Position numbers and translations under genes: made by a program. Below are positions 10,088-25,958 of a stretch of 32,417 bases of DNA, piece after piece. The notes beneath the pieces are model-generated. The model did not search any database. It saw only the letters and a list, made by a program, of their open reading frames with translations, and had not been told where the DNA came from. Location: IMG/VR virus record IMGVR_UViG_3300025151_000166, positions 1 to 32,417 of that record. One strand, given 5' to 3'. The number at the start of each line of letters is the position of its first letter. Positions within the stretch are counted from its first letter, which is position 1. Source of the DNA: a virus.

Positions 10088-11385
10088 TGTTACAAGCAAC
10101 CACGGGACTAAGATATAATACAGTAAATATTACTTCTCTTGATGGGGAGAAGACAATTGACTTGACTAATTCTCTTATAGAAACAGATTACTTTGAAGAT
10201 CTTTTATCTCCAACTTTATCTGCAACTTTGAAAATAGCGACTTCATATGATATAATTGAAGGACTACCAATTCGTGGTGGAGAAAAAGTTATTATCGATT
10301 TACTAACTGCTTCTGGTCCATTCAAACAAACCTTCAGGGTTTACAAAGTAAGTGATGCGACTTTGCAAAAGCAAAAAGAAATGTTTGTATTGAATTTGGT
10401 TCCAGAGGAATATTTAAATAATGATTTAGTGAGAGTGAGTAGAAAATATCAAAAATTACCTGTTGATATTCATGTTAAAAGTATATTGCAGAATGTATTA
10501 CAGACAAGTAGAATTGGTGTGATTGAAGAGACTTCAAATTCTCTTTCATTTTTTGGTAACATGAAGAAACCAATATGGACTCTTCAATGGTTAGGTCCAC
10601 AATCACTTTCAGTAGTAGGTGGTGGAGGTGGAGAAAAGGGAGAAGAAGGATCAAAAGATAATCCAGCAGAAGCAAAAGGAACTGCCGGATTTATTTTTTA
10701 TCAAAATAGTGCAGGGTTTCATTACAGAAGTGTTGACAGTTTGGCATCAAAGACTAGAGTACAGGAGAGTAGTGCTGACCTAGAAGACATAATGACATAC
10801 AGTGCGGGAGAGGTTACAAAGGCAAATGATGTAAAAAATGCTGTCAAAATTATAAATTATTTCTTTGAGAAAAATATTGATCTTAGAAAGGGATTAAGAA
10901 CTGGCATGTATGGTAATAAAACACTTAATTTTAATCCGTTAACTCATGAGTTAACTGTTTATGATTACTCACTTTCAGATGCATTAAAGAAAAGAGGAAA
11001 GGAAACACTTGGAAATCAAAAAGACATTTCCATGTATTCGGATTCTCCATCAAGAATGATGTATCATATATCTGATGAGGGTGTCATGGCAGCAGAAGGT
11101 GGAGATGCAACATCTGGATTGGAACGTACTGCTAGGTCTAAATCTTTTGCTAGATATAATTTATTGTTCACACAGGGACTAAATATTCTCATACCTTGTA
11201 ACACTAAATTAAAAGCAGGAGACATAATTCGTTGTTTATTTCCTGAACTGCAGGGTGGATCAACGAAACAAACGGATAAAAGTAGAAGTGGTCTTTATTT
11301 AATCAAAGAATTGAGACATCATTTTTCTGCTAATCAAAATACTACATCTCTAAAATTAATTAGAGATTCTTACGGTGTTCAGTAA
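10087..11385 (+). CDS. gp27: gp27-like baseplate hub protein
   Basis: This 432-residue protein compares with T4 gp27 (391). It opens with strands typical of the gp27/gpD hub fold: SLIETDYFEDLLSPTLSATL, then KIATSYDIIEGLPIRGGEKV, followed by RVYKVSDATLQKQKEMFVLN. The middle contains GFIFYQNSAGFHYRSVDSL, as in hub proteins that read out an inserted domain. The end has IPCNTKLKAGDIIRCLFPEL and GLYLIKELRHHFSANQN, which parallels T4 gp27's FYVDEVIHELSNNN. In T4 three gp27 copies form the torus between gp5 and the tube. A Gly/Glu-rich insert at residues about 177-197 is probably a flexible loop. The start overlaps the previous stop (TAATG); after its own stop comes a strong ribosome-binding site for cp12. 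Confidence 0.78.
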   Translation: MLQATTGLRYNTVNITSLDGEKTIDLTNSLIETDYFEDLLSPTLSATLKIATSYDIIEGLPIRGGEKVIIDLLTASGPFKQTFRVYKVSDATLQKQKEMFVLNLVPEEYLNNDLVRVSRKYQKLPVDIHVKSILQNVLQTSRIGVIEETSNSLSFFGNMKKPIWTLQWLGPQSLSVVGGGGGEKGEEGSKDNPAEAKGTAGFIFYQNSAGFHYRSVDSLASKTRVQESSADLEDIMTYSAGEVTKANDVKNAVKIINYFFEKNIDLRKGLRTGMYGNKTLNFNPLTHELTVYDYSLSDALKKRGKETLGNQKDISMYSDSPSRMMYHISDEGVMAAEGGDATSGLERTARSKSFARYNLLFTQGLNILIPCNTKLKAGDIIRCLFPELQGGSTKQTDKSRSGLYLIKELRHHFSANQNTTSLKLIRDSYGVQ

Positions 11386-11390
11386 AGGAG
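11384..11390 (+). promoter_or_regulatory. Strong Shine-Dalgarno sequence for cp12
   Basis: AAAGGAG lies 7 bases before the cp12 ATG and overlaps the gp27 stop codon. It is the clearest ribosome-binding site among the starts of the 4104-17653 series, most of which rely on overlaps or have no visible site. Confidence 0.75.
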
Positions 11391-11397
11391 ACTTAAA

Positions 11398-11625
11398 ATG
11401 GAAAACATTGAAACACACATTCAAAAAGATCGAGAGATACTTGCAAACCCAACGACCTCACCGCAACAACGTCGTCATATTGAGGGTGAGTTACATGAAC
11501 TTGAAGTTTACGTAGAAAATCACAAAAAAGAAATTGAAGCAGGAGACCACCACGACCCAACTGCTTTGGAACTATATTGTGAGTTAAACCCAGAAACAGA
11601 TGAGTGTAGGATTTACGAAGATTAA
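11398..11625 (+). CDS. cp12: CP12-like regulator of the Calvin cycle (auxiliary metabolic gene)
   Basis: This is a small 75-residue, highly charged protein. The C terminus DPTALELYCELNPETDECRI plus YED matches the CP12 GAPDH-binding tail: Cys-x8-Cys with Asn-Pro between, then acidic 'ECRxYED' at the end. The middle (HIEGELHELEVYVENHKKEI) fits the helical region corresponding to the CP12 PRK-binding 'VEEL' segment. The N-terminal cysteine pair found in plant and many cyanobacterial CP12 proteins is absent; only the C-terminal pair exists. Host CP12 locks GAPDH and phosphoribulokinase in an inactive complex in the dark. Cyanophage CP12 is thought to slow the Calvin cycle and steer NADPH to nucleotide synthesis. 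It sits between the hub genes gp27 and gp5, and its stop overlaps the gp5 start. Confidence 0.86.
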   Translation: MENIETHIQKDREILANPTTSPQQRRHIEGELHELEVYVENHKKEIEAGDHHDPTALELYCELNPETDECRIYED

Positions 11626-14471
11626 TGATTTCAGATTCCTTAGTACAAACTAAATTTGCTGGTAAAGACGGATTCACATGGTGGATTGGTAAAGTTGCTC
11701 GTCCAGAATTTTGGAAAGATACTGAAACTGTTCAATCTCAATCAGGTGAAAAGGGACATAGAGTAAAAGTTAGAATTATTGGATACCATCCCTGGGATAC
11801 AAATGAACTCCCAGAGAAAGACCTGCCATGGGCAGAAGTCATGTCCGATCCGAATGTTGGTAATGGCACCCTGTCAAGGGGTGAAACAATGAACCTTGTT
11901 GGGGGAGAAACTGCTGTAGGTTTCTTCCTCGATGGTGATGATGCACAGCATCCAGTCATCATGGGTCTTTTGCATAGAAGTGCCAATGTAAAAGATACAA
12001 TAACCGAGTCCAAAGCATCAAGTAAAGGAGCTGGACTTGAGAACACCACTCCGCCGTCTCCATCAGGAGATCCAGATCCACCGTCAACACGTCCCAATCC
12101 AAAAGCCGTACCGGTGGGAATGGGAAAACAAGGTAAGACGCAACCAGGAAGAAGTAAGAGAGGAGGGGCAACTGCTGCTGCAGATTATCTTAATTTGACT
12201 GTAGAACAACCAAGAGGAACATATACTGCATCAGAATTTGCTGCAGAAAAAATGGGAACTAAAAAAGTTACTCCCGCCACAACCTGTAGTGATAATTACA
12301 TCGGAAGAATTACACAGGTACTTCAAGATTTTATTGCGCTATCAAATACTTTAGAAAAAACTCTTGATGTTTATGTTGATCCTGTTCTGAATGAGGTCGT
12401 TGATATGACCTATCAGATCAAAAAATTTGCGAAGAGAACTATGGGCATCATCAAGATGGTGCTCAACAATATTAGAAATGGACTACTTTCAAAGTTGAAT
12501 TTGATGTTCAGTAACTTTCTTGGATTCGCAAAACAATTTGATCCTTTCTCATTCTTGACAGGACCATTGGCACAGAAAGGATTTATGCAAATCCTTGCTT
12601 TGATTTTTTGTATATTTGAAAAACTTATTGGTGAACTTTTAAAGTTTTTGGAAAACCTTTTTGAAACCATGCTTGGTCGTGTTGTTAATGGACCTGCTTG
12701 TGCGGTAGAACAATTTCTTCAAGGTATCCTGGCAAAGGTTATGGATGCATTAGAGAAGGGACTGGAACCAATTTTAAAAGGTCTTGATTGGTTAATGGGA
12801 GGATTGAGTCAGGTCAAAGATGTTCTCAATACAGTAAGCAGTTTAGCAACTAAGATCTTTAACTTTATTGGATGCGACGGATTGAAGTGTACAACACCAA
12901 GCAGTTGGATTTCTTCAATCAATGGATCACTAGAAGAAAAACGTGATGATTGGGCTAAACAAGTTAGGGGTATTAATGTATTCCGAAATGCAAATGAAGA
13001 ACTATCTAAGTTTGAACGAGATGCTGATAACGCAACGATAAATTTATTTGGAAATGATGAACAATATAAGAGTACGAATTATAGAGGATCGAACTTAGGA
13101 AGTATTTTAGCAGACGTTGATAAACTAACAGGAGGAGAATCTAGAAAGAAATTTAATAAAGGATTGGATTCAATTGAAGCAGCACTTGCCACAAGCACAT
13201 TGCTTGGTGGTGAGAACTCTATATTTAATGCTTGTAATCGTAATATTCACAATCCACAAACTCAAGATGATATGATGCCAATGCCAATTGGGTATCAATA
13301 TGATTATTGTCTCCCACCAAAAGTAAAAATCTTAGGTGATGGTAAAGGTGCAAAACTCAGAGCAATTATTGGTAATCGGGGAGAGATATTCTCCGTTGAA
13401 GTCGTAAGAGAAGGAAGAAACTACACTAAAAAAGGAACTTCTCTTGTCATCATTGATAACAGTGGTCATGGTCGTGGAGCACAAGCAGATCCAGTTGTTA
13501 AAGATGGAAAAATTAAGCATGTAGTCATTACTTCATCAGGTAGTGGTTACTGTCCAAATGTTCCATACTCAGATCCTAGTGCAGAAGGACCGTTAGATGA
13601 AGTAGATACACCGATTGATTGTAGTACCACTCAAGATTGTCCTGAGGGCATGGAGTGTGTCAATGGAAGATGTGTTATTCCATGTAATATTGATTCTGAT
13701 TGCCCGCCAGGTATGATATGCATGAATGGTATGTGCGTACCAATTCCGGGAGAACCAGGAATCGGAACGGATGTTAATGGAGTTGTGACTGTTATAGAAC
13801 CAATAAGTCCTGGAATTGGTTATGGTCCTGATGATGATATCTTTATTGGAGATGAATTGTGTGAGAGTTGTGTCCTTGGCATTTCAACAGGTGGATCGGT
13901 TATTAGTGTCGAACTTGGTACTTTTGATACCAAATTCAAGATACAACCATCGGTTAGGATTTCAAGTGATAATGGCGTAGGTGCGAATCTAATTGCTGTT
14001 ATGGCGTATGAAAGACAATATCAAACTGACTTTGGTTCTGACACTAGAAGAAGACTGGTTGGCATTACTAGCGTTGTGGATTGTGTTGGTGATCCTCCAC
14101 AACTGGTTGGATATGTAAATGGTAGAGAATACTATGGACCATTCCATGTGCATCCAGAAACTGGCGCTAAGATGGTTGGAGAGCGACATGTTTCTACTCC
14201 TCATGCTATAATATATCCAACCAAAGAACAAAGTTTGGGAGGAAATACCATTCAAATAGTAGAAACTGAATCCGAAGATAGGCAAACTCAGAGTGTACCA
14301 GTAGCAGGACCTGCTGCTACGACCACAACAACTGTTACACCAACTCCGACACCGACACCAACTCCGACACCAACAACATCCCCAATAAATACAGATACAC
14401 CTACACCTACACCATCTCCCTCACCTTCTCCTGATCCTGGACAGGGTGGTGGATATGGAGGAGGATATTAA
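11625..14471 (+). CDS. gp5: gp5-like baseplate hub protein (OB fold) with long accessory region
   Basis: The protein has 948 residues; T4 gp5 has 575. Residues 1-125 match the gp5 OB fold: FTWWIGKVARPEFWKD, then RVKVRIIGYHPWDTNELP, LPWAEVMSDP, ETAVGFFLDGDDAQHPVIMG. The T4 lysozyme domain is not visible. Instead there is a Pro/Gly linker (about 130-190), hydrophobic amphipathic helices (about 215-430, e.g. FMQILALIFCIFEKLIGELL), and two beta modules of the G-x-G-A/G-x-G-Y type (about 565-645 and 710-800). Between these modules lie two tandem cysteine-rich repeats (about 664-702, eight Cys). The tail (about 904-948) is Thr/Pro/Ser-rich and ends in Gly/Tyr. In T4, gp5 is the hub of the cell-puncturing device. 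The beta-helix seems to be encoded by the next gene. The ATG overlaps the cp12 stop (TAATG). Confidence 0.83.
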   Translation: MISDSLVQTKFAGKDGFTWWIGKVARPEFWKDTETVQSQSGEKGHRVKVRIIGYHPWDTNELPEKDLPWAEVMSDPNVGNGTLSRGETMNLVGGETAVGFFLDGDDAQHPVIMGLLHRSANVKDTITESKASSKGAGLENTTPPSPSGDPDPPSTRPNPKAVPVGMGKQGKTQPGRSKRGGATAAADYLNLTVEQPRGTYTASEFAAEKMGTKKVTPATTCSDNYIGRITQVLQDFIALSNTLEKTLDVYVDPVLNEVVDMTYQIKKFAKRTMGIIKMVLNNIRNGLLSKLNLMFSNFLGFAKQFDPFSFLTGPLAQKGFMQILALIFCIFEKLIGELLKFLENLFETMLGRVVNGPACAVEQFLQGILAKVMDALEKGLEPILKGLDWLMGGLSQVKDVLNTVSSLATKIFNFIGCDGLKCTTPSSWISSINGSLEEKRDDWAKQVRGINVFRNANEELSKFERDADNATINLFGNDEQYKSTNYRGSNLGSILADVDKLTGGESRKKFNKGLDSIEAALATSTLLGGENSIFNACNRNIHNPQTQDDMMPMPIGYQYDYCLPPKVKILGDGKGAKLRAIIGNRGEIFSVEVVREGRNYTKKGTSLVIIDNSGHGRGAQADPVVKDGKIKHVVITSSGSGYCPNVPYSDPSAEGPLDEVDTPIDCSTTQDCPEGMECVNGRCVIPCNIDSDCPPGMICMNGMCVPIPGEPGIGTDVNGVVTVIEPISPGIGYGPDDDIFIGDELCESCVLGISTGGSVISVELGTFDTKFKIQPSVRISSDNGVGANLIAVMAYERQYQTDFGSDTRRRLVGITSVVDCVGDPPQLVGYVNGREYYGPFHVHPETGAKMVGERHVSTPHAIIYPTKEQSLGGNTIQIVETESEDRQTQSVPVAGPAATTTTTVTPTPTPTPTPTPTTSPINTDTPTPTPSPSPSPDPGQGGGYGGGY
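14335..14437 (+). repeat. Low-complexity Thr-Pro coding repeat
   Basis: Degenerate ACNCCN units encode alternating Thr-Pro and later Ser-Pro near the gp5 C terminus, interrupted by a short SPINTD segment. Third positions vary (ACTCCG, ACACCG, ACACCA), so the protein pattern rather than the DNA pattern appears conserved. Confidence 0.8.
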
Positions 14472-15070
14472 TGACAGAAGATGAAATAAAAAAATTAGTT
14501 CAAGGAGAACTTGATCAATTCGCTAAGAATTATTATAGAAGAAACTATCCTAACTTTAATATGACTTCCGGTCATATAAGCGAAGCACATGGTGTGAGTG
14601 AATATATTGTTGCTACAGACACTGGACAAAGTATTCAATTCTATAAGCAAGGTAATGGTAAGATTGTGGCAAGAAAATCTCTTGAATTGGTTGCAGGAGA
14701 TAAAGCGACAAATAAAGATGTTTCTATCTCAATAAGAGCAGAGGACGGTCATATAGTTATTGAGGCATTGGAAGGAGACCTCACTCTTCGAGGTAACAAT
14801 GTCATTCTTGAAGCAACTGATGCTGAGGGAGCAATTGTATCTAAATCTCCTAAAGTTTTTCACGTAAAATCACCAGAGATTGAATTACAAGGAACAAAAA
14901 TAACTGCAAGTTCAACAATGGACACGTTAATTGCTGCCGGAGAACTTTCATTATATTCTGAATCTGGTCCTATTAAACAAGGTGATGGTACTCAACCTAT
15001 CATTGGTAGTAGTGTTTTTGAAACTGTGTTTAATGTTGTGGATAAAGCAAGAGCATTCTTTAACGTATAA
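14471..15070 (+). CDS. Baseplate spike-like protein (separate gp5 C-terminal part / gp5.4-like)
   Basis: This 199-residue protein has a helical start, then alternating short strands of the gp5/VgrG needle type: SISIRAEDGHIVIEALEGDL, then TLRGNNVILEATD and later IELQGTKITASS. Just before them, VSEYIVATDTGQSIQFYKQG resembles the T4 gp5 entry into its spike (HTMETESGHIQEF). In T4 these strands form the trimeric beta-helix that pierces the outer membrane. Here the gene directly follows the gp5 OB-fold gene with a TAATG overlap, so hub and spike seem to be two chains. A separate gp5.4-like tip protein is an alternative. No cysteines or membrane segments were noted. Confidence 0.68.
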   Translation: MTEDEIKKLVQGELDQFAKNYYRRNYPNFNMTSGHISEAHGVSEYIVATDTGQSIQFYKQGNGKIVARKSLELVAGDKATNKDVSISIRAEDGHIVIEALEGDLTLRGNNVILEATDAEGAIVSKSPKVFHVKSPEIELQGTKITASSTMDTLIAAGELSLYSESGPIKQGDGTQPIIGSSVFETVFNVVDKARAFFNV

Positions 15071-15076
15071 AATATC

Positions 15077-15964
15077 ATGTCAATCGCTAACGGTGCATTT
15101 GGAAAACTTACCATCGGTGTTCCCGATGTGTCACTGGCTACTGCTCCCAACATTCTACCTAGCGGTACATTATCAAATCCAGGTGTTTCATTTTTTGGTG
15201 CCGCTTTGTCTGTTGGTGTTGCGAAAGCAGCAGTTAACATCGGACCTCCTCTTACAATTCCCGGACTCTCTTTACCGCTGTCCTTGTGGGTAGATGGTAT
15301 ATCACAGTTCAATGGAATTGTTAATATCTTTGGAAACATCAATCAATATTCATTAGAGACATCATTTGGTGCAAAGATTGCTAACTCTCTGGGTATTAAG
15401 AATGGTGTTGATATTAAAAATGCCTTCAATATAGGTAATGCGGTTACTAACTTTAATGGTAAAGTGGTAGTCGCAGGTTCCGTAACTGCTCCTCTATTCA
15501 AAGGTGTTTTAATCGGATATGCTACAGGAAATAAACCTTTTGATATTCCTCATTGGGAGAAGAAAGGTAAGCGAATACGACATGTGTGTGCAGAAGGTCC
15601 CGAAGCAGGCATATATATTCGTGGAAAACTTGATGGTTCAAATGTTATTGACCTGCCAGAGTATTGGCAAGGACTCGTTGACTATGATACAATTACAGTA
15701 ACACTTACACCATACGAAAAGAAAGATACATCATTATATGTCAAAGATGTTTCCGAAGATAGAGTGTTAGTATCAGGTGATAACCACACAAATATAAAAT
15801 GTTTTTATGAAGTATGGGTGGCAAGGTGGATTGATCCTAGAAATCATAATGAAAAACTTCATGTTGTTTATGACGGAGAATCACCTAAAGATTATCCAGG
15901 AAATAATGAGAATTTTTTAATTGGTGGATGGGATTACGATAGAAGAAAAACTACTTGGAAATAA
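15077..15964 (+). CDS. Putative virion structural protein with 'AEGPE...LPEYW' domain
   Basis: This 295-residue protein has a Gly/Pro/Ser-rich first half containing repeated 'FxGxVxIFGxINxxS' and 'ANSLGIKNGVDIKNAFNIGN'-like strands. From about residue 152 a compact domain follows: KPFDIPHWEKKGKRIRHVCA, then EGPEAGIYIRGKL, VIDLPEYWQGLVDYDTITVT, LTPYEK, CFYEVWVARW, and near the end VVYDGESPKDYPG. I know this 'IPH-EGPE-LPxYW-LV' pattern from tail fibre-associated proteins of cyanophages and other marine phages, but not a proven activity. Its place directly after the spike gene would suit a tip, fibre or PAAR-like capping role; no PAAR motif was seen. The start lies 6 bases after the previous stop, without a clear ribosome-binding site. 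Confidence 0.6.
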   Translation: MSIANGAFGKLTIGVPDVSLATAPNILPSGTLSNPGVSFFGAALSVGVAKAAVNIGPPLTIPGLSLPLSLWVDGISQFNGIVNIFGNINQYSLETSFGAKIANSLGIKNGVDIKNAFNIGNAVTNFNGKVVVAGSVTAPLFKGVLIGYATGNKPFDIPHWEKKGKRIRHVCAEGPEAGIYIRGKLDGSNVIDLPEYWQGLVDYDTITVTLTPYEKKDTSLYVKDVSEDRVLVSGDNHTNIKCFYEVWVARWIDPRNHNEKLHVVYDGESPKDYPGNNENFLIGGWDYDRRKTTWK

Positions 15965-15967
15965 ATC

Positions 15968-17653
15968 ATGGCAGATAAAAGAAAGGGAAAAATTAAAAAC
16001 AAACTGAAAAAGAGACTTAGAGTAAAAATTGATCATAAGATTGCAGAAAGAAAAGTAGTCCTAGATCAATTGGCACTTCTTGATGCTGAACTAGATGGTA
16101 TTGATGAAGTTATTATTAAAATCGATAAGAAGATACCTCCTCTTGTCGAAGAAATTAATGATGCAATTGATGATGTTAAAGCAGCATATGATGCAAGAAT
16201 CGCTGGAGGTTGTAGAAGTAATCTAAGGTGGGAACTCGGAGAAAAGACATATGAAAGAGCAGCTATGGGATTTACTCAAACTGCTGTAGTAAAAACTACT
16301 GCTTCAACGCAATTAAACAAGGTAGGTGTAAAGTATTTCAAGAAAGAACAAGACAGAGATTACGGAACTAATATCATACAAAACTTTGTTGGTGTCATTA
16401 CCGCTGGGCATAATGTAATGGCAGTGGTAAATCCTGAACCACAAATCGATAGAATAAAAGTAAAAGACTTTATTACGGACAGTTTTAGAGCACCTGAAGT
16501 ATTCGCTGTTGGGCATATTCCAGAAATTGTTTCGATTGGAACCACTACAGTTGTTCGAGAGGTAGATGTAGTTAATGGTTCTATTGAACTTGGATCAATT
16601 CATTTTGCAAACACAGGTATTGGAAGCACTACATCTGCACCGGTTGACTATCACTTTATTGATCAAACTCATTTTAGTGAAGACACAAGAGTTGTTGGGT
16701 TTGGAACTACAACTGTAAGTAGATTTATAGTAGATCCTGTTGCTGGAGTTTCAACTGCGTTTGAAGAGACAGTTCCTACTTTTGTATTAAGTAAACCCGC
16801 TTTAGTTGCAATCGCTACTGACATTACACAAGATGTAACAATAGGAGTGACATCTAGTTTTCCATCTTTCGTACTCTCTGGCCTTGCAACTGTAACTACT
16901 AGTGATAGATTCTTCGTTGCATATAGGGTCGATAGAGATGCGGACAATGAATACACTCAAAATTCAGTCGATGCGGAATTTAATTATCTAAAGAGTCCTG
17001 TAGATCCAATTGAGATTGGTTTGATAAATTCGCAATCTTTTGGTTTTGGATATCGAATCCAACGTGTTCAGAATGGACATCCAGATCCAGGTCCCGGTAA
17101 TTTTGAAACATGGGAATCACAAAAATCCACAAGCGGTTTAGAATTTGATTCACCCGAACCAGTAGAAGATGACCATCCAGAACCACGAGTTGGGGCAGGA
17201 ATTGTTACTTATTTTGTAGGAGTTGCAGCATCATTTCCAACAATTGTTCAAAATGGTGACCGTACTGGTGGTTTAGGTGCCCAGACCCAATATGCAGTTC
17301 TTAATCAGGATACTAGCGTTGGAACTGGTGAAGCTGGTGGATTTTCAGACGGAACTCATAGTTATACTCCCACCCCAAACCCAGCAACTTATGTTGGCGT
17401 ATCTGATTGTAATGATTTAGATGATGCGATTACTGCTGCCGAAACTGCATTAACTAATATTAGAAATGAAAATGAACCTAAGATTGATAAATTTATTAAT
17501 AAAAGTAAAACTCTTAGAAAATTAAGAGATGAACTACAATTGGAAGCATGGGGTCTTCTGCAGGCGGCCGCCTACAATAGGGAACAAATTGCAGAGATGG
17601 CTGCTGACGCCGGTCTTTTAGATTCGGAAGAGTTTGAAGAGTTCGATACGTGA
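15968..17653 (+). CDS. Virion structural protein of unknown role, coiled coils at both ends
   Basis: This 561-residue protein is not matched to a named family. A lysine/arginine-rich start is followed by a predicted coiled coil (about 15-75, e.g. LLDAELDGIDEVIIKIDKKI). A beta-rich centre follows with recurring G-[IF]-G-T/S-T-T patches (VSIGTTTVV, TGIGSTTS, VGFGTTTVS). The protein ends in a second helical segment (about 480-550, e.g. AAETALTNIRNENEPKIDKF). This layout, helices bracketing a beta-rich centre, suits an extended fibre or collar-type structural protein. The G-x-G-T-T patches recur in the large structural proteins downstream. It is the last gene of the rightward baseplate series before the regulatory island. 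Confidence 0.55.
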   Translation: MADKRKGKIKNKLKKRLRVKIDHKIAERKVVLDQLALLDAELDGIDEVIIKIDKKIPPLVEEINDAIDDVKAAYDARIAGGCRSNLRWELGEKTYERAAMGFTQTAVVKTTASTQLNKVGVKYFKKEQDRDYGTNIIQNFVGVITAGHNVMAVVNPEPQIDRIKVKDFITDSFRAPEVFAVGHIPEIVSIGTTTVVREVDVVNGSIELGSIHFANTGIGSTTSAPVDYHFIDQTHFSEDTRVVGFGTTTVSRFIVDPVAGVSTAFEETVPTFVLSKPALVAIATDITQDVTIGVTSSFPSFVLSGLATVTTSDRFFVAYRVDRDADNEYTQNSVDAEFNYLKSPVDPIEIGLINSQSFGFGYRIQRVQNGHPDPGPGNFETWESQKSTSGLEFDSPEPVEDDHPEPRVGAGIVTYFVGVAASFPTIVQNGDRTGGLGAQTQYAVLNQDTSVGTGEAGGFSDGTHSYTPTPNPATYVGVSDCNDLDDAITAAETALTNIRNENEPKIDKFINKSKTLRKLRDELQLEAWGLLQAAAYNREQIAEMAADAGLLDSEEFEEFDT

Positions 17654-17665
17654 GCAAGGTCACGA

Positions 17666-17679
17666 GGGGTTGACACCCC
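17666..17679. repeat. Inverted repeat over the -35 box
   Basis: GGGGT and ACCCC arms flank TGAC, so the -35 hexamer TTGACA lies inside a small perfect inverted repeat. No T tract follows, so it is unlikely to be a terminator. It could be an operator or a chance palindrome. Confidence 0.5.
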
Positions 17680-17698
17680 AGCGCCTCCCTGGTATAAT
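17670..17698 (+). promoter_or_regulatory. Perfect sigma-70 consensus promoter
   Basis: TTGACA (17670-17675) and TATAAT (17693-17698) are both exact consensus hexamers with the ideal 17-base spacer. Transcription should start near 17705, about 18 bases before the first small ORF. A host-type promoter of this strength marks an early-expressed unit embedded between late structural genes. Confidence 0.85.
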
Positions 17699-17722
17699 AT
17701 ACAGGTAATCAACAAACGACCC

Positions 17723-17893
17723 ATGCAAATCAATCAAGAAGATCTGGTCGCACTCAAGCATCTCCAAGAGGACATGGCAGAGTATTTCTGTGATGAGAAC
17801 GCCATCAGTGGCGAAACCTATTGGACTTGTCTTGAAACGCTTGCTGAGATCAAGTTGATGGAACTCAAAGGAGAAGTTGTTCTTACAGACTGA
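17723..17893 (+). CDS. Small acidic protein of unknown function
   Basis: This is a 56-codon ORF starting about 18 bases after the predicted start point of the consensus promoter. The sequence begins MQINQEDLVALKHLQEDMAE and is helical and acidic, with two cysteines and the segment GETYWTCLETLAEIKLMELK. Codons often end in C or G, as in gp32 and unlike the flanking structural genes. The stop overlaps the next start (TGATG). No function recognised; small early phage proteins often act on host factors, but nothing here shows that. Confidence 0.6.
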   Translation: MQINQEDLVALKHLQEDMAEYFCDENAISGETYWTCLETLAEIKLMELKGEVVLTD

Positions 17894-18057
17894 TGCCTTA
17901 TTCTTACTACCTTTACAAAGAAATTCTAGACTGCTACGAGTATGAGACCAGAAACCAGACAATCTATGGAAATGTTATTCGCAGCGAAGTGGAATTTACC
18001 CAAAGCAGCGGAGAACTGCAACCTGACATTGAAGGAGATGAAGATAACGTTCAATGA
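17893..18057 (+). CDS. Small Tyr-rich protein of unknown function
   Basis: This 54-codon ORF is translationally overlapped with the preceding one (TGATG). It starts MPYSYYLYKEILDCYEYETR, is rich in tyrosine at the N terminus and acidic at the C terminus (DIEGDEDNVQ). Its overlaps with both neighbours and shared codon use with the first small ORF support it being real. No family recognised. Confidence 0.5.
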   Translation: MPYSYYLYKEILDCYEYETRNQTIYGNVIRSEVEFTQSSGELQPDIEGDEDNVQ

Positions 18058-18113
18058 GTATTGTGCATTTCATCCGCCGACTTATGATGAATCAAACTAA
18101 AATTGACTTTTGA
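18054..18113 (+). CDS. Possible 19-residue peptide
   Basis: A 19-codon ORF whose ATG overlaps the preceding stop in an ATGA arrangement. The peptide MSIVHFIRRLMMNQTKIDF is basic and hydrophobic. It is supported only by the overlap and by ending before the next hairpin; it could easily be chance. Confidence 0.2.
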   Translation: MSIVHFIRRLMMNQTKIDF

Positions 18114-18136
18114 TTTCAAAAAAGGTCGAAAAAAAA

Positions 18137-18167
18137 TTCTGGGCTAAAATTACCCAGAAACCTTTTT
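18137..18167 (+). terminator. Intrinsic terminator-like hairpin before the tRNA genes
   Basis: TTCTGGG (18137-18143) pairs with CCCAGAA (18153-18159) across a nine-base loop, followed by ACC and five T residues ending just before tRNA-Leu. It would end or attenuate the transcript of the small ORFs. Alternatively it could act as a processing signal for the tRNA 5' end. Confidence 0.55.
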
Positions 18168-18253
18168 GCGAGTGTGGCGGAATCGGTAGACGCACCGGAC
18201 TTAAAATCCGTTGAGCATTATGACTCGTGGGGGTTCAAGTCCCCCCACTCGCA
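18168..18253 (+). tRNA. tRNA-Leu (UAA)
   Basis: An 86-base cloverleaf with long variable arm. The acceptor stem GCGAGTG pairs with CACTCGC, the anticodon loop CTTAAAA gives UAA, and the T arm is GGGGG-TTCAAGT-CCCCC. The discriminator is A, and the full CCA is not encoded (ACCT). There is no intron in the anticodon loop, where many cyanobacterial tRNA-Leu(UAA) genes carry a group I intron. It would read UUA codons, frequent in this AT-rich genome. Confidence 0.95.
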
Positions 18254-18257
18254 CCTT

Positions 18258-18329
18258 GCCCTTATAGCTCAGTGGTAGAGCAACGCTTTTGTAAAGCGTA
18301 GGTCGTTGGTTCAAATCCGACTGGGGGCT
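18258..18329 (+). tRNA. tRNA-Thr (UGU)
   Basis: A 72-base cloverleaf starting 4 bases after tRNA-Leu. The acceptor GCCCTTA pairs with TGGGGGC (two G-T pairs), the D arm is GCTC-AGTGGTA-GAGC, the anticodon stem ACGCT/AGCGT has loop TTTGTAA giving UGU, and the T arm is GTTGG/CCGAC. CCA is not encoded. It would read ACA codons. The tight spacing implies a shared transcript and processing. Confidence 0.95.
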
Positions 18330-18330
18330 T

Positions 18331-18370
18331 GGGGGAGTACAATAGATCTGCATCTAGAAGCAGCGCCCCC
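18331..18370 (+). other. Stem-loop in the tRNA 3' trailer
   Basis: GGGGG (18331-18335) can pair with CCCCC (18366-18370), enclosing an inner TAGAT/ATCTA stem (18343-18347 and 18352-18356). The same C run, as GCCCCC, can also pair with GGGGGC at the 3' acceptor strand of tRNA-Thr (18323-18328), so two exclusive foldings exist. Confidence 0.5.
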
Positions 18371-18396
18371 TTTCTTGTTAGTTTCATATGTACTCC

Positions 18397-18425
18397 TGGA
18401 GGATTAATCATCCTCCAATTTTTTT
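18397..18425 (+). terminator. Intrinsic terminator after the tRNA pair
   Basis: TGGAGGAT (18397-18404) pairs perfectly with ATCCTCCA (18410-18417) around a five-base loop, followed by A and seven T residues. This is a clear rho-independent terminator for the early island. Confidence 0.9.
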
Positions 18426-18428
18426 GTC

Positions 18429-18436
18429 AATAAATA
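18429..18436 (+). promoter_or_regulatory. Candidate late promoter (AATAAATA) for the 89-residue ORF
   Basis: AATAAATA, immediately after the terminator T run and 22 bases before the next ATG, matches the T4-type late core TATAAATA at seven of eight bases. The position, right after a terminator, favours a new transcript start. Confidence 0.45.
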
Positions 18437-18458
18437 TTTTTGAGTTGAGGATACGCGC

Positions 18459-18728
18459 ATGAGGTATCATCTAGACATCAAGTATTGCTGGTACAACTTT
18501 TCACAGCAATTGGTTTTGATGTATTTTATAAATGGTATTCCATATACATTTGACGATGTGGAGGAGTCAATATATTATGACCATGAAATTATTGAGTGGG
18601 CAGATGGGAATACAAAATATGACATTGATGATATGTACAAAGCATCACAGTATTTGATTGCTGAGCAATGCCATCCTTTACTGTTCGACTTAGAGTTAGA
18701 GAACCCGGAGTTGCTTCCGATAGATTAA
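18459..18728 (+). CDS. Hypothetical acidic protein
   Basis: This is an 89-residue protein with no recognised family. It is acidic and rich in Tyr, Asp and Ile (FDDVEESIYYDHEIIEWADG, then KYDIDDMYKASQYLI). The start is supported by a GAGG ribosome-binding site 8 bases upstream and by a late-promoter-like element. It lies between the tRNA terminator and the giant structural gene. A candidate late promoter for the next gene follows its stop. Confidence 0.6.
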   Translation: MRYHLDIKYCWYNFSQQLVLMYFINGIPYTFDDVEESIYYDHEIIEWADGNTKYDIDDMYKASQYLIAEQCHPLLFDLELENPELLPID

Positions 18729-18744
18729 AGGCAGATCTGTCTGT

Positions 18745-18752
18745 GATAAATA
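18745..18752 (+). promoter_or_regulatory. Candidate late promoter (GATAAATA) for the giant structural gene
   Basis: GATAAATA lies 30 bases before the ATG at 18783 and shares the ATAAATA core with the elements at 5104 and 18429. Confidence 0.4.
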
Positions 18753-18782
18753 AAGCAGAAGAAAAATTAGTGCGCTGATACG

Positions 18783-21700
18783 ATGCCTCTTTCAAGGTTA
18801 GAAAATTTTCTGATTAATACCGATGGTAATATTCTTTATGTAAATCCATCAGATCTGGACGCTACCGATAGTTTTGATAACAAAGGTAACTCCTTAACGA
18901 GACCGTTCAAGACTGTTCAGCGTGCTTTAATAGAAGCAGCAAGATTTGCATATCAAGCGGGACCAAGTAACGATAAGTTTGATAATACTACTGTCTTATT
19001 GTATCCTGGCACGCACTTAATTGATAATAGACCAGGATTATATATTCAAAATAATGGTGGGTCAGCGCAATTTTTAGATCAAAGTAAGTCAGTAGTTGCT
19101 TCTCCAAACATTGAATTAAACAACTCATCAATATTTGATTTGAATAATGCAAATAATGTATTGCAGAAATTCAATTCAGTTGAAGGTGGAGTTATTGTAC
19201 CTAAGGGTACTTCAATTGTTGGTTTAGATCTTCGTAAGACAAAGATTGTACCACTGTATGTTCCTGAACCAGATAATAATAACGTCCCTCGATCAGCAAT
19301 CTTTAGAATTACTGGTGGATGCTACTTCTGGCAGTTTAGTCTCTTTGACGGAAAACAAGATGTATTTTTTGACAATAATGACTACTCCAAGAAAGCATCG
19401 CCATCATTCTCTCACCATAAACTGACATGCTTTGAGTATGCTGATGGTGTGAATACGGATTTGACTACGGGTCTGACTGATCTGCAGATGTATTATTATA
19501 AGTTGATGAATGCTTATGGTAATGACACTGGTGCTAGAGAGATTATTAATTTCCCAACTAATGATGACTTTGAACCTAACAATCCAGAATTTAAGATTGT
19601 CGGTGATTTAGTTGCTAACGATCTTCTGCTCCAAGGTAGTGCAACTTCAGATGGAATTGTTGCTACAGTTAATACAGAGAAACCACACGGACTGACTCTT
19701 AATGATACAGTTAGAATCGTTGGTATTAGTTCGGAAACATATAACGGAAGATTTACAGTTTCTGGAATTACCAGTGAAAGAACGTTCTCATATAATATGC
19801 TTGCTGATCCAGAAGCAAATGTTGTTTCAACAACTGCTGGAACCAGTAAAGCAATTGTGGAGATCGATAATGTTAATGGTGCATCTCCATACATTTTTAA
19901 TATCTCAATGAGATCTGCCTTTGGCATGTGTGGTATGCACGCTGATGGTGCAAAGGCAACTGGATTTAAGTCTATGGTTGTTGCTCAGTTTACCGGTATT
20001 GGTCTTCAAAATGACGACCAAGCGTTTGTAATTTATAATCCCTCTACCGGTTCTTATGACACAAATAGTTCAACAGATTTGTCCAATAGACCACTGCACC
20101 TGAATCAAGATGCAATCTATAAGCAAGATTATACAAACTTCCATGTTAAATCATCAAATGATGCTGTAATTCAAGCAGTTTCTGTTTTCGCTATTGGATT
20201 TGCAGAGCATTTTGTCTCTGTTGATGGTGGAGACCAATCAATTACTAACTCAAACTCTAACTTTGGTGCAAAATCTTTAGCATCTAGTGGATTTAGAAAG
20301 CAGTCGTTTGATCGTGATGACACTGGATATATTACTCATATTGTTCCGCCAAAAGATTTGCAACAAGATGAGTTTAATGTTGGATGGAGAACACTAAATG
20401 CTACATCAGGTGCTTCTGGAATTTCAACATCTGGTGCATTGTATATTCTTGGTGAAGTTGATGAAAATAACCCACCAACAAATATTACAAATGGATTTAG
20501 AGTTGGTGCAAGGGAGGGAGAAGTTTTATATCTAGATGTAACTCTTGATGGCATTCCAAAAACATTCTCTTCGAGAGTTGTGATGCAGTCTAAATCTGGA
20601 ACTTCTGTTTCTGCATATAAAAAAGAATTTACGGTGTCGTCTTTCACCAAAGATACAGATACACCAGCATCTCAGTTGACATTAGATGGAAGTCATAGTT
20701 TCCTAGCTGGAGAATCTGTAAGAATTTACAGTGACAATGGAATCCTTCCTGATGGAATTGAATACGGTAGACAGTATTATGTAATTGATACTGGTGCAAC
20801 AACCATCAGATTATCAAAAACATTTAACGGTGCTGTTGCTGCAACTCCAGATAATATTGATATTAAGAACACTCTTGGAGGTACTTTGAGAGTATGTAGT
20901 ACAGTGACTGATAAAATTCCTGGTGAACCAGGACATCCAATTCAATTTGATTCTGATGGTTGGCATGTTATAACAGACACTACTTTCTCAGATCCAGATA
21001 CTGAAGATACAATATTTAATGGTTTCCAAGGATTTGGAACTGCTATTTCGGCAAACAATTCTTCAACATACATCAAGAGAAAGTCTGAATCTCGTGATCT
21101 AAAAGATAGAACTTATAGATTAAGATACGTCATTCCAAAAGAGTTTGTGAATGCAAAGTCTCCGGAGAAGAACTTTATTATTCAGGAATCTAAAACTGTA
21201 AAAGATGAGACCACTATTAATGACATGAGGTCTCATCGTAATCCTCGTGTGATTGCTGGTATTACGACTACTGGTTTTGTTGCGACTGTGACATCAGAGA
21301 TTGATCATGGTCTTTCTGTTAATGATGTAGTTAGACTTAAGAACGTAGTTAGTAATACTAATCTAACTGCTGCAGACAATACTGGATTGAATGGATACTT
21401 TACTGTTACTGAAGTTCCGACTTCTAGAACATTTAAGTTTACAAATCCAAATTCAATCGGAATGGGAATATATGTTGATAGAACTCATTCCTGCAGAAGC
21501 ACAAATGACGCTACTGCAACCATAGATGATCTTCCTGTGTTTGAGAGAAATGAATATGATACAACATATGTGGTTGAAAATGTAGAACAACTACAAGAAT
21601 ATATTCCTTCACAACAGGATGGTGTATATTATCTGACCGTTTTGACGGGTAACATTACTCCAACAGTAACTGAATTTGATGACCAAAAGTTTAAGCAAAG

Positions 21701-24700
21701 TCCATATTATTTGTATCCAGTAGTTGATAAAGATAATTTGATTCTGGATCCTTTGCAAACTGTATCTGTCGCATCAAATTCTTTAATCGGAAAGACTCTT
21801 GTTAATGATGCACAAAATAGTCTTACAAAAGAAAGCACTATTAACTATTTGAGAGATAATAAAGTTGGTTATGCTATCACTGGTGCTGAATCTACTTCGG
21901 GCGGTTCAGCAACCATATTCCTTGCACAAAATCATAATCTGAACGCTGTTGAAAGAATTGATGCTGTAACTACCGGTGGAACTGGATATGGAAACGTTGC
22001 TTCGGGAACTACCTCATTATACAATGTTCAAACTACATCGGATACTGGTTTCGGTGAGGGTTGCACATTAGAACTTACAGTTGCCAATCAAGTTGTTACC
22101 GCTGCTAAAGTAATGAATGGCGGTTGTGCATATATTAACGGAACAACACTGACAATTGCTGGTGGTAATAACAATGCAAAAGTTAGGATTACTGTTTTAG
22201 ATGCTGCCAGAACCGGAAGAGGTGTTGAACTTGTTGGAATCGGAACAGCAGGAAATAGAAATAATAGCGGTTACAATGGATTGCATCGTATTACTGAAGC
22301 AACTAAACCAAAACAATTTCAGTGTGCGATAGTTGGAGACACAAGGTGGTCAGCTGGAAACGTTGTTCAGGGAACAAATCCTGGAACATTTGTTTCTAGT
22401 CCAAATGCCCTGGCCTTCTTTACTGGAAATGGTGCTCAGTTGACAGGTCCTGTAATGGGTGGTAAGAGTATTATTTCTTCTTCCGTTGGTATCTCAACAG
22501 TAGAAACCATTGATGAGCATGGTTTTGCCGTTGGTAATAAAATTAAGTTACATCATATTAGTGGAGTTGGTCACACCATATTCTCTGAGCAATCTTTTAT
22601 CGTTCAGAAAATTGTCAGTAGTAAGAAATTTGAAATCAAAAATCCATATGGTGACACTCCTGATGTAGAAGTTAATATTGCATTCGCATTGAGGCATGGT
22701 TTAGGAGCGACTGGTGAGGATACTTCATTAACAACGGAAAAGATCAATGGTAGAATGTTCCCACTTATTTCTAAAAGTGTTCATAGGGAACTGAATGCAA
22801 ATGTTTCTGCTGGTGCCGCAGCGGTAGGAATTACATCAACTGCAGGAATAGAACCCGGAGATTTCATTCAAATTTCGGATGAGATCATGAGAGTCAAGTC
22901 TCTGGATGCAAATGGACAGACATTAAATGTTATCCGTGGTGTGCTTGGATCTAGGTCATCAACTCACTCGAATACTGATCCAGTTAAAATTGTTAGGGCA
23001 GTTCCTTCTGAGGTTCGTAGATTCTCAAGTATTCGTGCCTCGGGTCATACCTTTGAGTACATTGGTTATGGTCCTGGTAACTACTCTACTGCATTACCAC
23101 AGAAACAAGTCAGAGTTATCAGTGATGAGGAAGAATTCCTTGCTATTTCTAAGGAACAAAAAGGTGGTGTTACATTCTTCTCTGGCATGAATGATCGTGG
23201 TGAGTTCTTCACATGGGATGGTAGAATCGTATCAAGAGAGAACTTCTTAGGAGAAGTTGGATCCGATGCTTCAAGTTCATTTGATGATCTTTATGTAAGA
23301 AACACTTTACGTGTTGGTGGTGGAGCGAATCAAAATCTACCATCAGAATTTAGAGGTCCGGTTAATTTCATTAATAAAATTACATCAACTTCAGTTGATG
23401 GTATTGATGCAATTAAGATGATTTTGAAAGGGACAGCAATTTCCGAACCCTTCTTCCAAGTTGGACCAGATGCTAATCCATCACTGATTGTTAATCAAGC
23501 AACTCAGCGTGTTGGTGTTAAGATTGCCGAACCAAGACATGAATTGGATGTTAATGGAACAATTCGTGCGAACATTTATGAAAACTTTAAGTTAAGTGAT
23601 CTTCCAAACAGTTTAACCGAAGAGGCAACTTTCGCTAGAAATAGAGTTCTGAAAGTAAATGACAAAGGCGATGGATATGAATTGGTTGACGTTCACGAGG
23701 TCGATTCTTTTGCACTAAGAAGTTATGGTATCAGTAATGATGGAACTGTATACTCTGGTATTGGAACAGTTATTAGTCTTGGTGGGGCTGTAGCAATTGC
23801 AGCTGGATCTGGTACTACTATGACTGCTAGTGATCTCGGCACACTCGTTTCAAATGGAGCACTTCAAGTTACTGGAATTGACACTTCAAGATTCTTTATT
23901 GGCGAAAAGTGTAAGATTTTTGGTGTGACAGATCATTCAGAGTCCGGTTTGATTGCTGACCCTAGTTGGTCAACCATGACTGCGACTAAAACAGGAACAC
24001 ATGAAGTAGGTGGTTCACCTGGATCATCAACAATGCGTTATTGGGTGGCACAATATAATTTTAATGATGGTAGAGTTGGATTTGCTAGTGCAATCGGTAT
24101 ATCAACGATTACTGCTTTGCAGACGATTGATAATTTTAATGATGTCGATCATGTTACTCTAAATCTAGCAAGAACTGATACTAATCATGGATTGCTTGTT
24201 TATAGGCAGTATACTTCATCTGGAGCTGGTGTTGCAAATATAGATAATGCAGAGTTAATTGGAATTCTTGGACCAAAAGAACTTACGAATTCTACATCTA
24301 ATATTAACTATAAAGATTATGGAACGTATGATCAAACTGAGTGGTCTCCTAATGGATCACGCAATGAATATAAAGATGAAAGTCAGATTCACTTCCCCAA
24401 CATTGCAACCACTGGTCACAGAAGAGGATTTGGAGTTGCTGAGATTATTGGAATTGAAGCAAACAAAATTACATTAGCAAACGAACTGATTCGTTTCAAT
24501 GATAGTGAAGTTGGTTTCGGAACAACAAGTGCAGTCAAAGTCGTACATGAAAATACTGATGCAATTGATGAAGCTATTCAAGATACAATTTCTAGTGGAG
24601 GTAACTACTTAAGTCTTCCTAGTGGAACATACCTCACCAATAAACTTGTTATTCCAACAGGATTTACGATTAAAGGCAATGGTAAAAACACCATAATTAA

Positions 24701-25955
24701 ACGTCAATTCTTCGCTAACGATGGTGATGGCAACTTAGTTGGTATTGGAACAACTGTTGGTAAGGATATTACACTGCAGGACTTTACCATAGATGGTAAT
24801 AATGCAAACAATATTAGATATGGTGAAACAACTGCGGCAAGAAATGCTTACTTAGCATACTTACCCTCTGTTACTTCCGTAGCAATGAGAAGTGTTGAAA
24901 TTAGAAATAGTGCTGAGCATGGTCTTTGGGTTCAGGATTCAACTAGATTGTCAATAACTGATTGTGATATTGTTGATGGTTCTCTAACCGATAGATTTGA
25001 ATATGGTCCAATCAACGCACAAGGTTCTCAAGTTCTCAGAATCCACGATTCCCTCTTTGAGAATTATCCTGCTGCGGTAGATGTTTCTGCAACTGAGGTT
25101 ACCTCGACTGGTGGAAACATCATTAGAAATTGTGGATCTGGTATTAAGGTCTTTGCTAGCGGTAAGATTAGTACAAAGGATAATATTATTCTTGGACCAT
25201 CTGATGAGCATATTCCATCACCAGATATCTTTGATAGTGACTTTGATTCTGTCAACGTTTCGATTGATCCTGATGTTAACTTCAGTGGACCTACATTCCT
25301 TTATATCCGTGATGGTAATCCATTCAACATTGCATCAAATGCTGGTGTAACAATTATCTCTGCAGGAATCGGAACCGTAATTGGAACCGGAACTACTAAT
25401 GAATCTCTTGGAATTGCATTTGAACAGTTTGATCTACCTACTCCCGATAATGATCCTAGCCTCGTTGATAGAACAAATGGTTTCCTCAAGATTGACCTTA
25501 CTGCAGCTAAGACGGTAGGATTTGGAACACGTAGAGATATGAATATGGGTTATGAAATTATTGCTGAAGAGTATTTACAACAACCATCATCTATCTCGAC
25601 GTTTGCTGGAATCTCCACAGGTGCTTGGTATAAGGAAGGTGCCGCAGTCATCGGTGCTGGGGTAACAAATTATCTTGTCACATTAGCGACCCCCGCACAT
25701 TTCCAGGCATTCTCTGTTAATCAAGTTGTGAAACTTGTAAATCACCAGACAACACCTGTTGTAACCAGTCAGTTGATGGTTCTTGAAGAGAAGAATGATG
25801 TTTCTGCAACTGTTAAGCAACTAAGATTTAGATTAGTTAATAACGATGCTGATCTTACTGCCGCATCAGTAACCTCAGAGTCTAATGCTCAAGGTGGATA
25901 TATATCTATAAGGGATAGATACGTAATCGCAAAAGGAAGAGTCGGAGTCATTTAA
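18783..25955 (+). CDS. Giant tail fibre-like structural protein with pectin-lyase-type beta-helix
   Basis: The protein has 2390 residues. The N terminus (residues 10-60: DGNILYVNPSDLDATDSFDN, then SLTRPFKTVQRALIEAARFA) is of a kind I know from large cyanophage virion proteins. Three related beta modules follow at about 287-330, 826-890 and 1230-1290. Their common pattern is an early hydrophobic strand, an HGL or HGF turn, a V-R/K-hydrophobic strand and a final TF/KF strand. Near 1360-1410 is a surface-type module with GDFIQISDEIMRVKSLD and VIRGVLGSRSSTHS. Residues about 1920-2150 look like a parallel beta-helix of the pectate lyase type: DAIDEAIQDTISSGGNYLSL, then PSGTYL, TIKGNGKNTIIK, ITLQDFTIDGNNAN, GSGIKV. 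Such domains in phage tails may bind or cleave host polysaccharide; no catalytic residues can be assigned. No clear ribosome-binding site is visible. Confidence 0.7.
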   Translation: MPLSRLENFLINTDGNILYVNPSDLDATDSFDNKGNSLTRPFKTVQRALIEAARFAYQAGPSNDKFDNTTVLLYPGTHLIDNRPGLYIQNNGGSAQFLDQSKSVVASPNIELNNSSIFDLNNANNVLQKFNSVEGGVIVPKGTSIVGLDLRKTKIVPLYVPEPDNNNVPRSAIFRITGGCYFWQFSLFDGKQDVFFDNNDYSKKASPSFSHHKLTCFEYADGVNTDLTTGLTDLQMYYYKLMNAYGNDTGAREIINFPTNDDFEPNNPEFKIVGDLVANDLLLQGSATSDGIVATVNTEKPHGLTLNDTVRIVGISSETYNGRFTVSGITSERTFSYNMLADPEANVVSTTAGTSKAIVEIDNVNGASPYIFNISMRSAFGMCGMHADGAKATGFKSMVVAQFTGIGLQNDDQAFVIYNPSTGSYDTNSSTDLSNRPLHLNQDAIYKQDYTNFHVKSSNDAVIQAVSVFAIGFAEHFVSVDGGDQSITNSNSNFGAKSLASSGFRKQSFDRDDTGYITHIVPPKDLQQDEFNVGWRTLNATSGASGISTSGALYILGEVDENNPPTNITNGFRVGAREGEVLYLDVTLDGIPKTFSSRVVMQSKSGTSVSAYKKEFTVSSFTKDTDTPASQLTLDGSHSFLAGESVRIYSDNGILPDGIEYGRQYYVIDTGATTIRLSKTFNGAVAATPDNIDIKNTLGGTLRVCSTVTDKIPGEPGHPIQFDSDGWHVITDTTFSDPDTEDTIFNGFQGFGTAISANNSSTYIKRKSESRDLKDRTYRLRYVIPKEFVNAKSPEKNFIIQESKTVKDETTINDMRSHRNPRVIAGITTTGFVATVTSEIDHGLSVNDVVRLKNVVSNTNLTAADNTGLNGYFTVTEVPTSRTFKFTNPNSIGMGIYVDRTHSCRSTNDATATIDDLPVFERNEYDTTYVVENVEQLQEYIPSQQDGVYYLTVLTGNITPTVTEFDDQKFKQSPYYLYPVVDKDNLILDPLQTVSVASNSLIGKTLVNDAQNSLTKESTINYLRDNKVGYAITGAESTSGGSATIFLAQNHNLNAVERIDAVTTGGTGYGNVASGTTSLYNVQTTSDTGFGEGCTLELTVANQVVTAAKVMNGGCAYINGTTLTIAGGNNNAKVRITVLDAARTGRGVELVGIGTAGNRNNSGYNGLHRITEATKPKQFQCAIVGDTRWSAGNVVQGTNPGTFVSSPNALAFFTGNGAQLTGPVMGGKSIISSSVGISTVETIDEHGFAVGNKIKLHHISGVGHTIFSEQSFIVQKIVSSKKFEIKNPYGDTPDVEVNIAFALRHGLGATGEDTSLTTEKINGRMFPLISKSVHRELNANVSAGAAAVGITSTAGIEPGDFIQISDEIMRVKSLDANGQTLNVIRGVLGSRSSTHSNTDPVKIVRAVPSEVRRFSSIRASGHTFEYIGYGPGNYSTALPQKQVRVISDEEEFLAISKEQKGGVTFFSGMNDRGEFFTWDGRIVSRENFLGEVGSDASSSFDDLYVRNTLRVGGGANQNLPSEFRGPVNFINKITSTSVDGIDAIKMILKGTAISEPFFQVGPDANPSLIVNQATQRVGVKIAEPRHELDVNGTIRANIYENFKLSDLPNSLTEEATFARNRVLKVNDKGDGYELVDVHEVDSFALRSYGISNDGTVYSGIGTVISLGGAVAIAAGSGTTMTASDLGTLVSNGALQVTGIDTSRFFIGEKCKIFGVTDHSESGLIADPSWSTMTATKTGTHEVGGSPGSSTMRYWVAQYNFNDGRVGFASAIGISTITALQTIDNFNDVDHVTLNLARTDTNHGLLVYRQYTSSGAGVANIDNAELIGILGPKELTNSTSNINYKDYGTYDQTEWSPNGSRNEYKDESQIHFPNIATTGHRRGFGVAEIIGIEANKITLANELIRFNDSEVGFGTTSAVKVVHENTDAIDEAIQDTISSGGNYLSLPSGTYLTNKLVIPTGFTIKGNGKNTIIKRQFFANDGDGNLVGIGTTVGKDITLQDFTIDGNNANNIRYGETTAARNAYLAYLPSVTSVAMRSVEIRNSAEHGLWVQDSTRLSITDCDIVDGSLTDRFEYGPINAQGSQVLRIHDSLFENYPAAVDVSATEVTSTGGNIIRNCGSGIKVFASGKISTKDNIILGPSDEHIPSPDIFDSDFDSVNVSIDPDVNFSGPTFLYIRDGNPFNIASNAGVTIISAGIGTVIGTGTTNESLGIAFEQFDLPTPDNDPSLVDRTNGFLKIDLTAAKTVGFGTRRDMNMGYEIIAEEYLQQPSSISTFAGISTGAWYKEGAAVIGAGVTNYLVTLATPAHFQAFSVNQVVKLVNHQTTPVVTSQLMVLEEKNDVSATVKQLRFRLVNNDADLTAASVTSESNAQGGYISIRDRYVIAKGRVGVI

Positions 25956-25958
25956 TCC

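Follow-up and report, generated by a model that had tools for sequence, protein, structure and literature searches.

What does an exact host-type promoter do within a cluster of phage tail genes? The window, that is, the whole stretch of DNA that was analysed, is a virus record of 32,417 bases and a fragment of the tail region of a T4-like cyanophage. Its genes comprise baseplate wedge, tail-tube cap, DNA end protector, head closure, tail tube, hub and a gp5-like tail lysozyme, and DNA similar to the window is found in Synechococcus and Prochlorococcus phages. A preliminary description had reported a perfect sigma-70 promoter with a 17-base spacer between late genes. Both points were confirmed: TTGACA and TATAAT stand 17 nt apart on the plus strand at 17670-17698, with 12 of 12 matches and a spacing inside the 16-18 nt of sigma-70 (RpoD-type) promoters, and because the site falls between a stop codon at 17653 and a start codon at 17723, its placement between late genes is correct. 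It lies 53 nt ahead of the gene for a small conserved protein, which we call P56. From the usual spacing of 6-7 nt after the -10 hexamer, the start point is predicted at about 17705. The coordinates of all features are collected in the table.

The same description had called the combination of exact TTGACA and TATAAT rare. This stands for random DNA, since 100 dinucleotide shuffles contained a mean of 0.06 perfect sites (at least one site in 6 of the 100), and the promoter is the sole TTGACA-N16..18-TATAAT in the window. For cyanophage genomes the statement is weaker: 17 records (3.03 Mb) held 76 perfect sigma-70 sites versus 4 in a reversed-pattern control, which corresponds to about one per 40 kb. 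A laxer scan of positions 8000-27900, requiring at least 9 of 12 matches, found 63 sites compared with 64.2 in shuffles and hence no excess; its single 12/12 match was the promoter at 17670-17698. As a promoter the window element is of an ordinary kind; it is its location that is informative.

Features of the promoter and its surroundings in the window (nt positions; strand)
Feature	Position	Strand	Remarks
561-aa ORF upstream of promoter	15968..17653	+	no family match; stop 16 nt ahead of -35 box
Inverted repeat GGGGT-TGAC-ACCCC (GGGGTTGACACCCC) over -35 box	17666..17679	.	not conserved; no U-tract
-35 hexamer TTGACA	17670..17675	+	same hexamer in relatives L002-L010
Spacer, 17 nt	17676..17692	+	3' end TGG; scan flags TG ahead of -10
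-10 hexamer TATAAT	17693..17698	+	read directly
Initial region ATACAGGTAATCAACAA	17699..17715	+	RGGTAATCAA in common with T4-GC341 promoters of other cyanophages
P56, 56-aa conserved protein	17723..17893	+	predicted helical hairpin
52-aa ORF, T4-GC160 homologue	17942..18100	+	PHROG 1308/1920; matches annotated cyanophage T4-GC160
tRNA-Leu (UAA)	18168..18255	+	
tRNA-Thr (UGU)	18258..18329	+	
Intrinsic terminator closing the unit	18397..18425	+	stem-loop 18397-18417 and T-run
Late-type NATAAATA motif	18429..18436	+	30 nt ahead of 89-aa ORF at 18459
Late-type NATAAATA motif	18745..18752	+	38 nt ahead of 2390-aa ORF at 18783

We consider it probable that the element acts as a strong promoter for the host sigma-70 (RpoD) in a T4-like cyanophage and opens a short early unit (P56, T4-GC160 homologue, tRNA-Leu and tRNA-Thr) surrounded by late tail genes. 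Shortly after infection, the unmodified RNA polymerase of the host would start near 17705; the early transcript, about 700 nt long, would cover both small genes and both tRNAs and end at 18397-18425. Late transcription of the tail genes on either side would rely on the NATAAATA promoters (18429, 18745) and the late sigma factor of the phage. If the early promoter is closed at all, this would come from the general change in polymerase specificity and not from a local operator. A consensus match to sigma-70 is not proof of promoter use, and the actual start, the timing and the sigma factor used are inferred. The sequence, its conserved position and the gene order are observed. The terminator and the late-type motifs of the neighbours are likewise observed: two small genes, two tRNAs and a terminator lie inside the tail/baseplate cluster, in agreement with the proposal that the promoter marks a unit within the structural cluster. 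That the unit is early is likely, as judged from the motif class and the rules published for cyanomyoviruses. In the portion of that work considered here, early genes carry sigma-70-like motifs thought to be read by unmodified host polymerase, and NATAAATA lies before late genes (PMC2984593).

In the structural genes of the window, UUA makes up 26% of the Leu codons and ACA 36% of the Thr codons, and the two tRNAs would fit a role as helpers for the A-ending codons of the phage. The interval between the T4-GC160 homologue and tRNA-Leu contains a stem-loop (18137-18159) that scored as a terminator of the minus strand. Read on the plus strand, it precedes ACCTTTTT, might also terminate the small-gene transcript and might thus halt transcription ahead of the tRNAs. 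The P56 stop (TGATG) also provides the start of a 54-aa ORF (17893-18057), which overlaps with the conserved frame of T4-GC160; clear homologues were found for the T4-GC160 frame only. In isolates, the annotated T4-GC160 ORF extends into the tRNA-Leu gene (L170 3002-3202, L169 2929-3201, L171 3001-3240), unlike the homologue in the window, which stops 67 nt short of it.

The AlphaFold model of P56 is a confident two-helix hairpin (pLDDT 93.6). A fold search in PDB and BFVD gave nothing above threshold, and the family search returned no PHROG and no significant Pfam match. An alignment of 38 sequences revealed 12 invariant positions. The strong conservation and the early-type control in relatives of the window allow the guess that P56 may be a small host-directed protein.

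To follow the promoter across relatives, we took the best 80 of 143 loci from a scan of viral contigs with P56; the 80 P56 sequences, with the window included, gave 58 clusters after dereplication, and one 315-base locus without upstream DNA (L041) was omitted from the promoter counts. In most of these 80 loci of 143, P56 has retained its syntenic tail-gene neighbours. Among the best 80 of 143, 27 of the 58 clusters showed a sigma-70 match of at least 10/12 located 50-58 nt before the start codon, which for each cluster no more than 5 of 300 shuffles attained. By single sequences, 34 of the 79 usable loci plus the window (best 80 of 143) have a match of at least 10/12 at 46-60 nt upstream of P56. 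These promoters agree in class, in the 17-nt spacing and in their distance from the start codon, and a sigma-70-type promoter whose position and sequence are kept in divergent relatives is supported. A tRNA scan of 44 loci, many of them incomplete, found tRNAs after P56 in just 12, so that the tRNAs are not a constant part of the island.

Against an early unit, the remaining 31 of the 58 clusters (best 80 of 143) lack a 10/12 match; 15 carry a late-type motif and the others a weak match or none. The two classes do not mix. No cluster of the 58 has both a sigma-70 and a late-type motif before P56, and no late motif was found 20-40 nt upstream of P56 in the 34 strong sigma-70 sequences (both among the best 80 of 143). 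ATAAATA precedes P56 in 22 of the 79 loci plus the window (best 80 of 143), none of which attains 10/12 for sigma-70, and TAAATA alone does so in 4 further loci; over the plus strand of these P56 loci (411,275 bases) ATAAATA occurs 130 times, 22 of them within 20-40 nt before P56. In the late-type loci, ATAAATA begins 26-29 nt before P56, which is the position of the -10 hexamer in the sigma-70 loci. A tree from neighbouring proteins and P56 (80 rows given, 78 kept; L046 and L050 dropped for lack of columns) has a single branch (SH-aLRT 100) that sets off the late-type rows, all 26 together, and the sigma-70 rows are spread over the remainder. The simplest reading would be one change of promoter class in the history of P56; the tree is midpoint-rooted, so that its root does not prove the direction of this change, and the quick tree warns of long branches. 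The relatives thus offer a natural experiment, in which one syntenic gene in one place has an early-type promoter in many lineages and a late-type promoter in one clade. With the same gene under both types, the cost of timing becomes testable.

These data bear on the possibility, which we consider unlikely, that the promoter is constitutive or dual-mode: it would be active throughout infection, read-through from the tail gene upstream would transcribe P56 and the tRNAs late as well, and the unit would not be strictly early. The scan scored no terminator with a U-tract in the interval from the tail gene to P56, and middle genes of cyanomyoviruses are thought, according to the part of the source considered, to combine early and late promoters (PMC2984593). 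Such a combination is not seen here, as no NATAAATA was found before P56 in the window and sigma-70 and late-type motifs are mutually exclusive before P56 in the relatives (best 80 of 143). An early promoter without a late motif at the same gene remains the preferred reading, and a likely early unit hidden in a late cluster would predict the small proteins and tRNAs which a cyanophage makes first.

A corresponding promoter was found in cultured cyanophages before another small gene, T4-GC341. Matches to T4-GC341 occurred in 287 phage records, of which the surroundings were inspected in 16, all from cultured or fully sequenced cyanophages. Twelve of the 16 have a promoter of at least 10/12 at 50-53 nt before T4-GC341. 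It lies after gp5 or one gene further on, mostly overlapping or just past the gp5 stop. Perfect promoters are present in Syn19, Syn9 and S-B64, P-SSM4 has 10/12 at -50, and weaker ones occur in S-SSM5, Syn30 and ACG-2014d (9/12) and in S-SSM4 (8/12). Within the stretches examined, tRNA-Leu is annotated further downstream in 9 and tRNA-Thr in 8 of the 16 phages. The window promoter thus shows, together with its P56 and T4-GC341 relatives, the evolutionary constraint at a fixed place before a gene that is expected of a sigma-70 promoter. The start regions are also alike (TATAATATGGGGGTAATCA in S-B64 versus TATAATATACAGGTAATCA in the window). The RGGTAATCAA start region of the window scored high on a matrix built from T4-GC341 promoters, and on this matrix 21 P56 promoters exceeded 26 other perfect cyanophage promoters (Mann-Whitney p = 0.0016); many marine P56 promoters had low scores. 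RGGTAATCAA as a general early-promoter signal was rejected, being absent from most other perfect promoters of the same genomes.

P56 and T4-GC341 appear to share one slot. In L111, L130 and L139 a T4-GC341-like gene occupies the place that P56 has in the window, next to homologues of the ORF at 15077, T4-GC160 and the large tail gene. The two genes were found together in 0 of 83 P56 loci and 0 of 24 T4-GC341 loci, within a few kb around each, in loci selected by one gene or the other. The P56 profile had no match in 16 complete T4-GC341 records and the T4-GC341 profile none in 21 P56 records, mostly fragments; with both reciprocal searches empty, homology of the two proteins is unsupported. 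The island resembles the gp5-tRNA hot-spot of Synechococcus cyanophages as described in the accessible part of Sullivan et al. 2010 (PMC3037559), where flexible small genes, tRNA-Leu, tRNA-Thr and T4-GC160 lie downstream of gp5. It differs in having three genes between gp5 and the island and P56 in place of T4-GC341/342. In that part of PMC3037559 we found no mention of a conserved entry promoter at the hot-spot. With the host-type early promoters of S-PM2 and Syn9 the window promoter shares TTGACA/TATAAT, the 17-nt spacing and, as far as the published portion considered goes, recognition by the unmodified host polymerase (PMC2984593), whereas it precedes the unnamed family P56 in an uncultured phage, inside a tail cluster.

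The sharing of one slot by two unrelated first genes recalls a known cassette. Arbiol et al. 2010 and Comeau et al. 2014 are said to have described PeSLs as composite early-promoter/stem-loop cassettes at hot-spots with exchangeable cargo. In the part of a further source considered, PeSL is a composite promoter-terminator motif of T4-like phages (PMC4503421). A scan of viral contigs for GGTTGACACCCC-N12..14-TATAAT gave 87 stretches, of which 80 were kept, and many of these 80 read GAAGGGG-TTGACA-CCCCTTCTTTTTTT-gta-TATAAT. In such sites the -35 box stands in the loop of what reads as a terminator hairpin, whose U-tract falls within the spacer of the promoter. Of the 80 GG-TTGACA-CCCC sites kept of 87, 33 combined at least 5 pairs around TTGACA with TTTT in the spacer. 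After dereplication, TTTT in the spacer accompanied complementary arms in 25/41 and 18/37 sites versus 2/44 and 0/44 for non-complementary arms (Fisher p ~1e-15); two of the scans for these arm classes gave at least 120 sites, and the comparison concerns composition within the retained loci, not totals. Swapped arm letters (CCC/GGG) showed the same U-tract pattern as GGG/CCC, and non-complementary arms did not. Composite terminator-promoters whose U-tract fills the 17-nt spacer were noted in several kinds of phage contigs (L086, L087, L099, L124, L129, L150 and others). They resemble PeSLs, compared here by description only, and are of interest for the question of how phages fit a stop and a start signal into one place.

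Could the window element be such a cassette? The mRNA of the upstream tail gene would then have at its 3' end the GGGGU-UGAC-ACCCC hairpin, a terminator remnant or weak form with the -35 box as its loop; one stretch would end one transcript and begin the next, and such cassettes would be exchange points of early genes. Many composites start 4-20 nt past a stop codon and have their -35 box 49-55 nt before the next start, like the window; the cultured relative S-SCSM2R has CCCCT-TGAC-AGGGG at the same P56 promoter, and the shared slot of P56 and T4-GC341 would fit exchangeable cargo. As in PeSLs, again by description only, a strong sigma-70 early promoter and a hairpin stand at a hot-spot. The window hairpin differs in its predicted lack of an effective terminator: it has no U-tract, was not scored as a terminator and its RNA fold is no better than that of shuffles (z -0.72). 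The 32-kb fragment, a part of the genome, contains a single perfect copy, where PeSLs would occur as several copies in recombining hyperplastic regions. Complementary arms are not general among the island promoters, and cyanophages seldom have the GG..CC-plus-U form, which was found in 1 of 17 phage records and in none of 22 from P56-type phages. We consider this reading improbable and, because of the missing U-tract, the ordinary fold and the rarity of the form in cyanophages, do not file the window element as a PeSL.

A host-type promoter opening an early unit is the reading that we retain, and a wider one may be suggested tentatively. Promoter and start region (TTGACA...TATAAT-N5-GGTAATCAA) would form a constant dock for an early island that many T4-like cyanophages have in their tail cluster, and the gene behind it would be swapped as a module, either P56 or T4-GC341 and never both. 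One clade would have moved P56 from early to late once, with the -10 hexamer replaced in place by ATAAATA, and the ancestors of the dock would be composite terminator-promoters in which the terminator loop is formed by the -35 box.

The preliminary description had further noted that the inverted repeat GGGGT-TGAC-ACCCC covers the -35 hexamer, which is the case at 17666-17679, and had proposed a repressor site that shuts the promoter as infection proceeds. A dimeric repressor would bind the repeat and block the promoter. The symmetry over the -35 box is perfect. Its innermost T-A pair belongs to TTGACA, so that only four pairs are informative; these four flanking pairs arose in 0.7% of local shuffles, and a 5-bp inverted repeat anywhere in the promoter region in 49%. 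We checked whether the palindrome is kept in related phages. Among L002-L010 it is intact only in L005, as it is in the window; CCTC replaces CCCC in L002-L004, and it is absent in L006-L010. The hexamers are perfect in all nine despite this variation. The test set for inverted repeats comprised P56 promoters of at least 10/12 and T4-GC341 promoters of at least 9/12 (49, or 37 after dereplication; P-SSM4 and S-SSM4 not included). Over these 37 promoters inverted repeats were not enriched (best-repeat mean p 0.60; 4/37 at p <=0.05). At least 4 pairs directly flanking TTGACA were present in 3 of 37 (window, L005 and S-SCSM2R) versus 0.15 expected, an excess over chance at one offset, in two lineages and noted after the fact. 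The S-SCSM2R repeat has the same shape in other letters, CCCC/GGGG versus GGGG/CCCC in the window, and a sequence-specific repressor would not read both alike. A second such perfect promoter site was not found in the window. The palindromic sequence is not conserved, its arms varying while the hexamers stay, and a repressor site is therefore not supported; free variation of the arms is the outcome that the preliminary description had named as refuting it. We rejected it as very improbable, and the -35 palindrome probably has no conserved role.

A chance match to the consensus, suggested by 9-of-12 matches being no commoner than in shuffles, has a negligible probability and is refuted by the conservation of class, spacing and start-codon distance in many divergent relatives.

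Further repeats were seen at these promoters. In L460 and L463 the GGTAATCAA start region follows promoters with C-runs flanking the -35 box on both sides, a further sign that the palindrome arms vary freely. A second, imperfect palindrome around the -10 hexamer (CCTG...CAGG) was recognised on visual inspection of L002-L009, and L010 has lost it. The T4-GC341 promoter of Syn9, a phage for which a transcription-start study reportedly exists, has an 8-bp inverted repeat ACACCCTG-GA-CAGGGTGT in the spacer (L178 ~2450-2467; p 0.003), and that of S-B64 (L181) a 9-bp inverted repeat which extends from the spacer into the start region.
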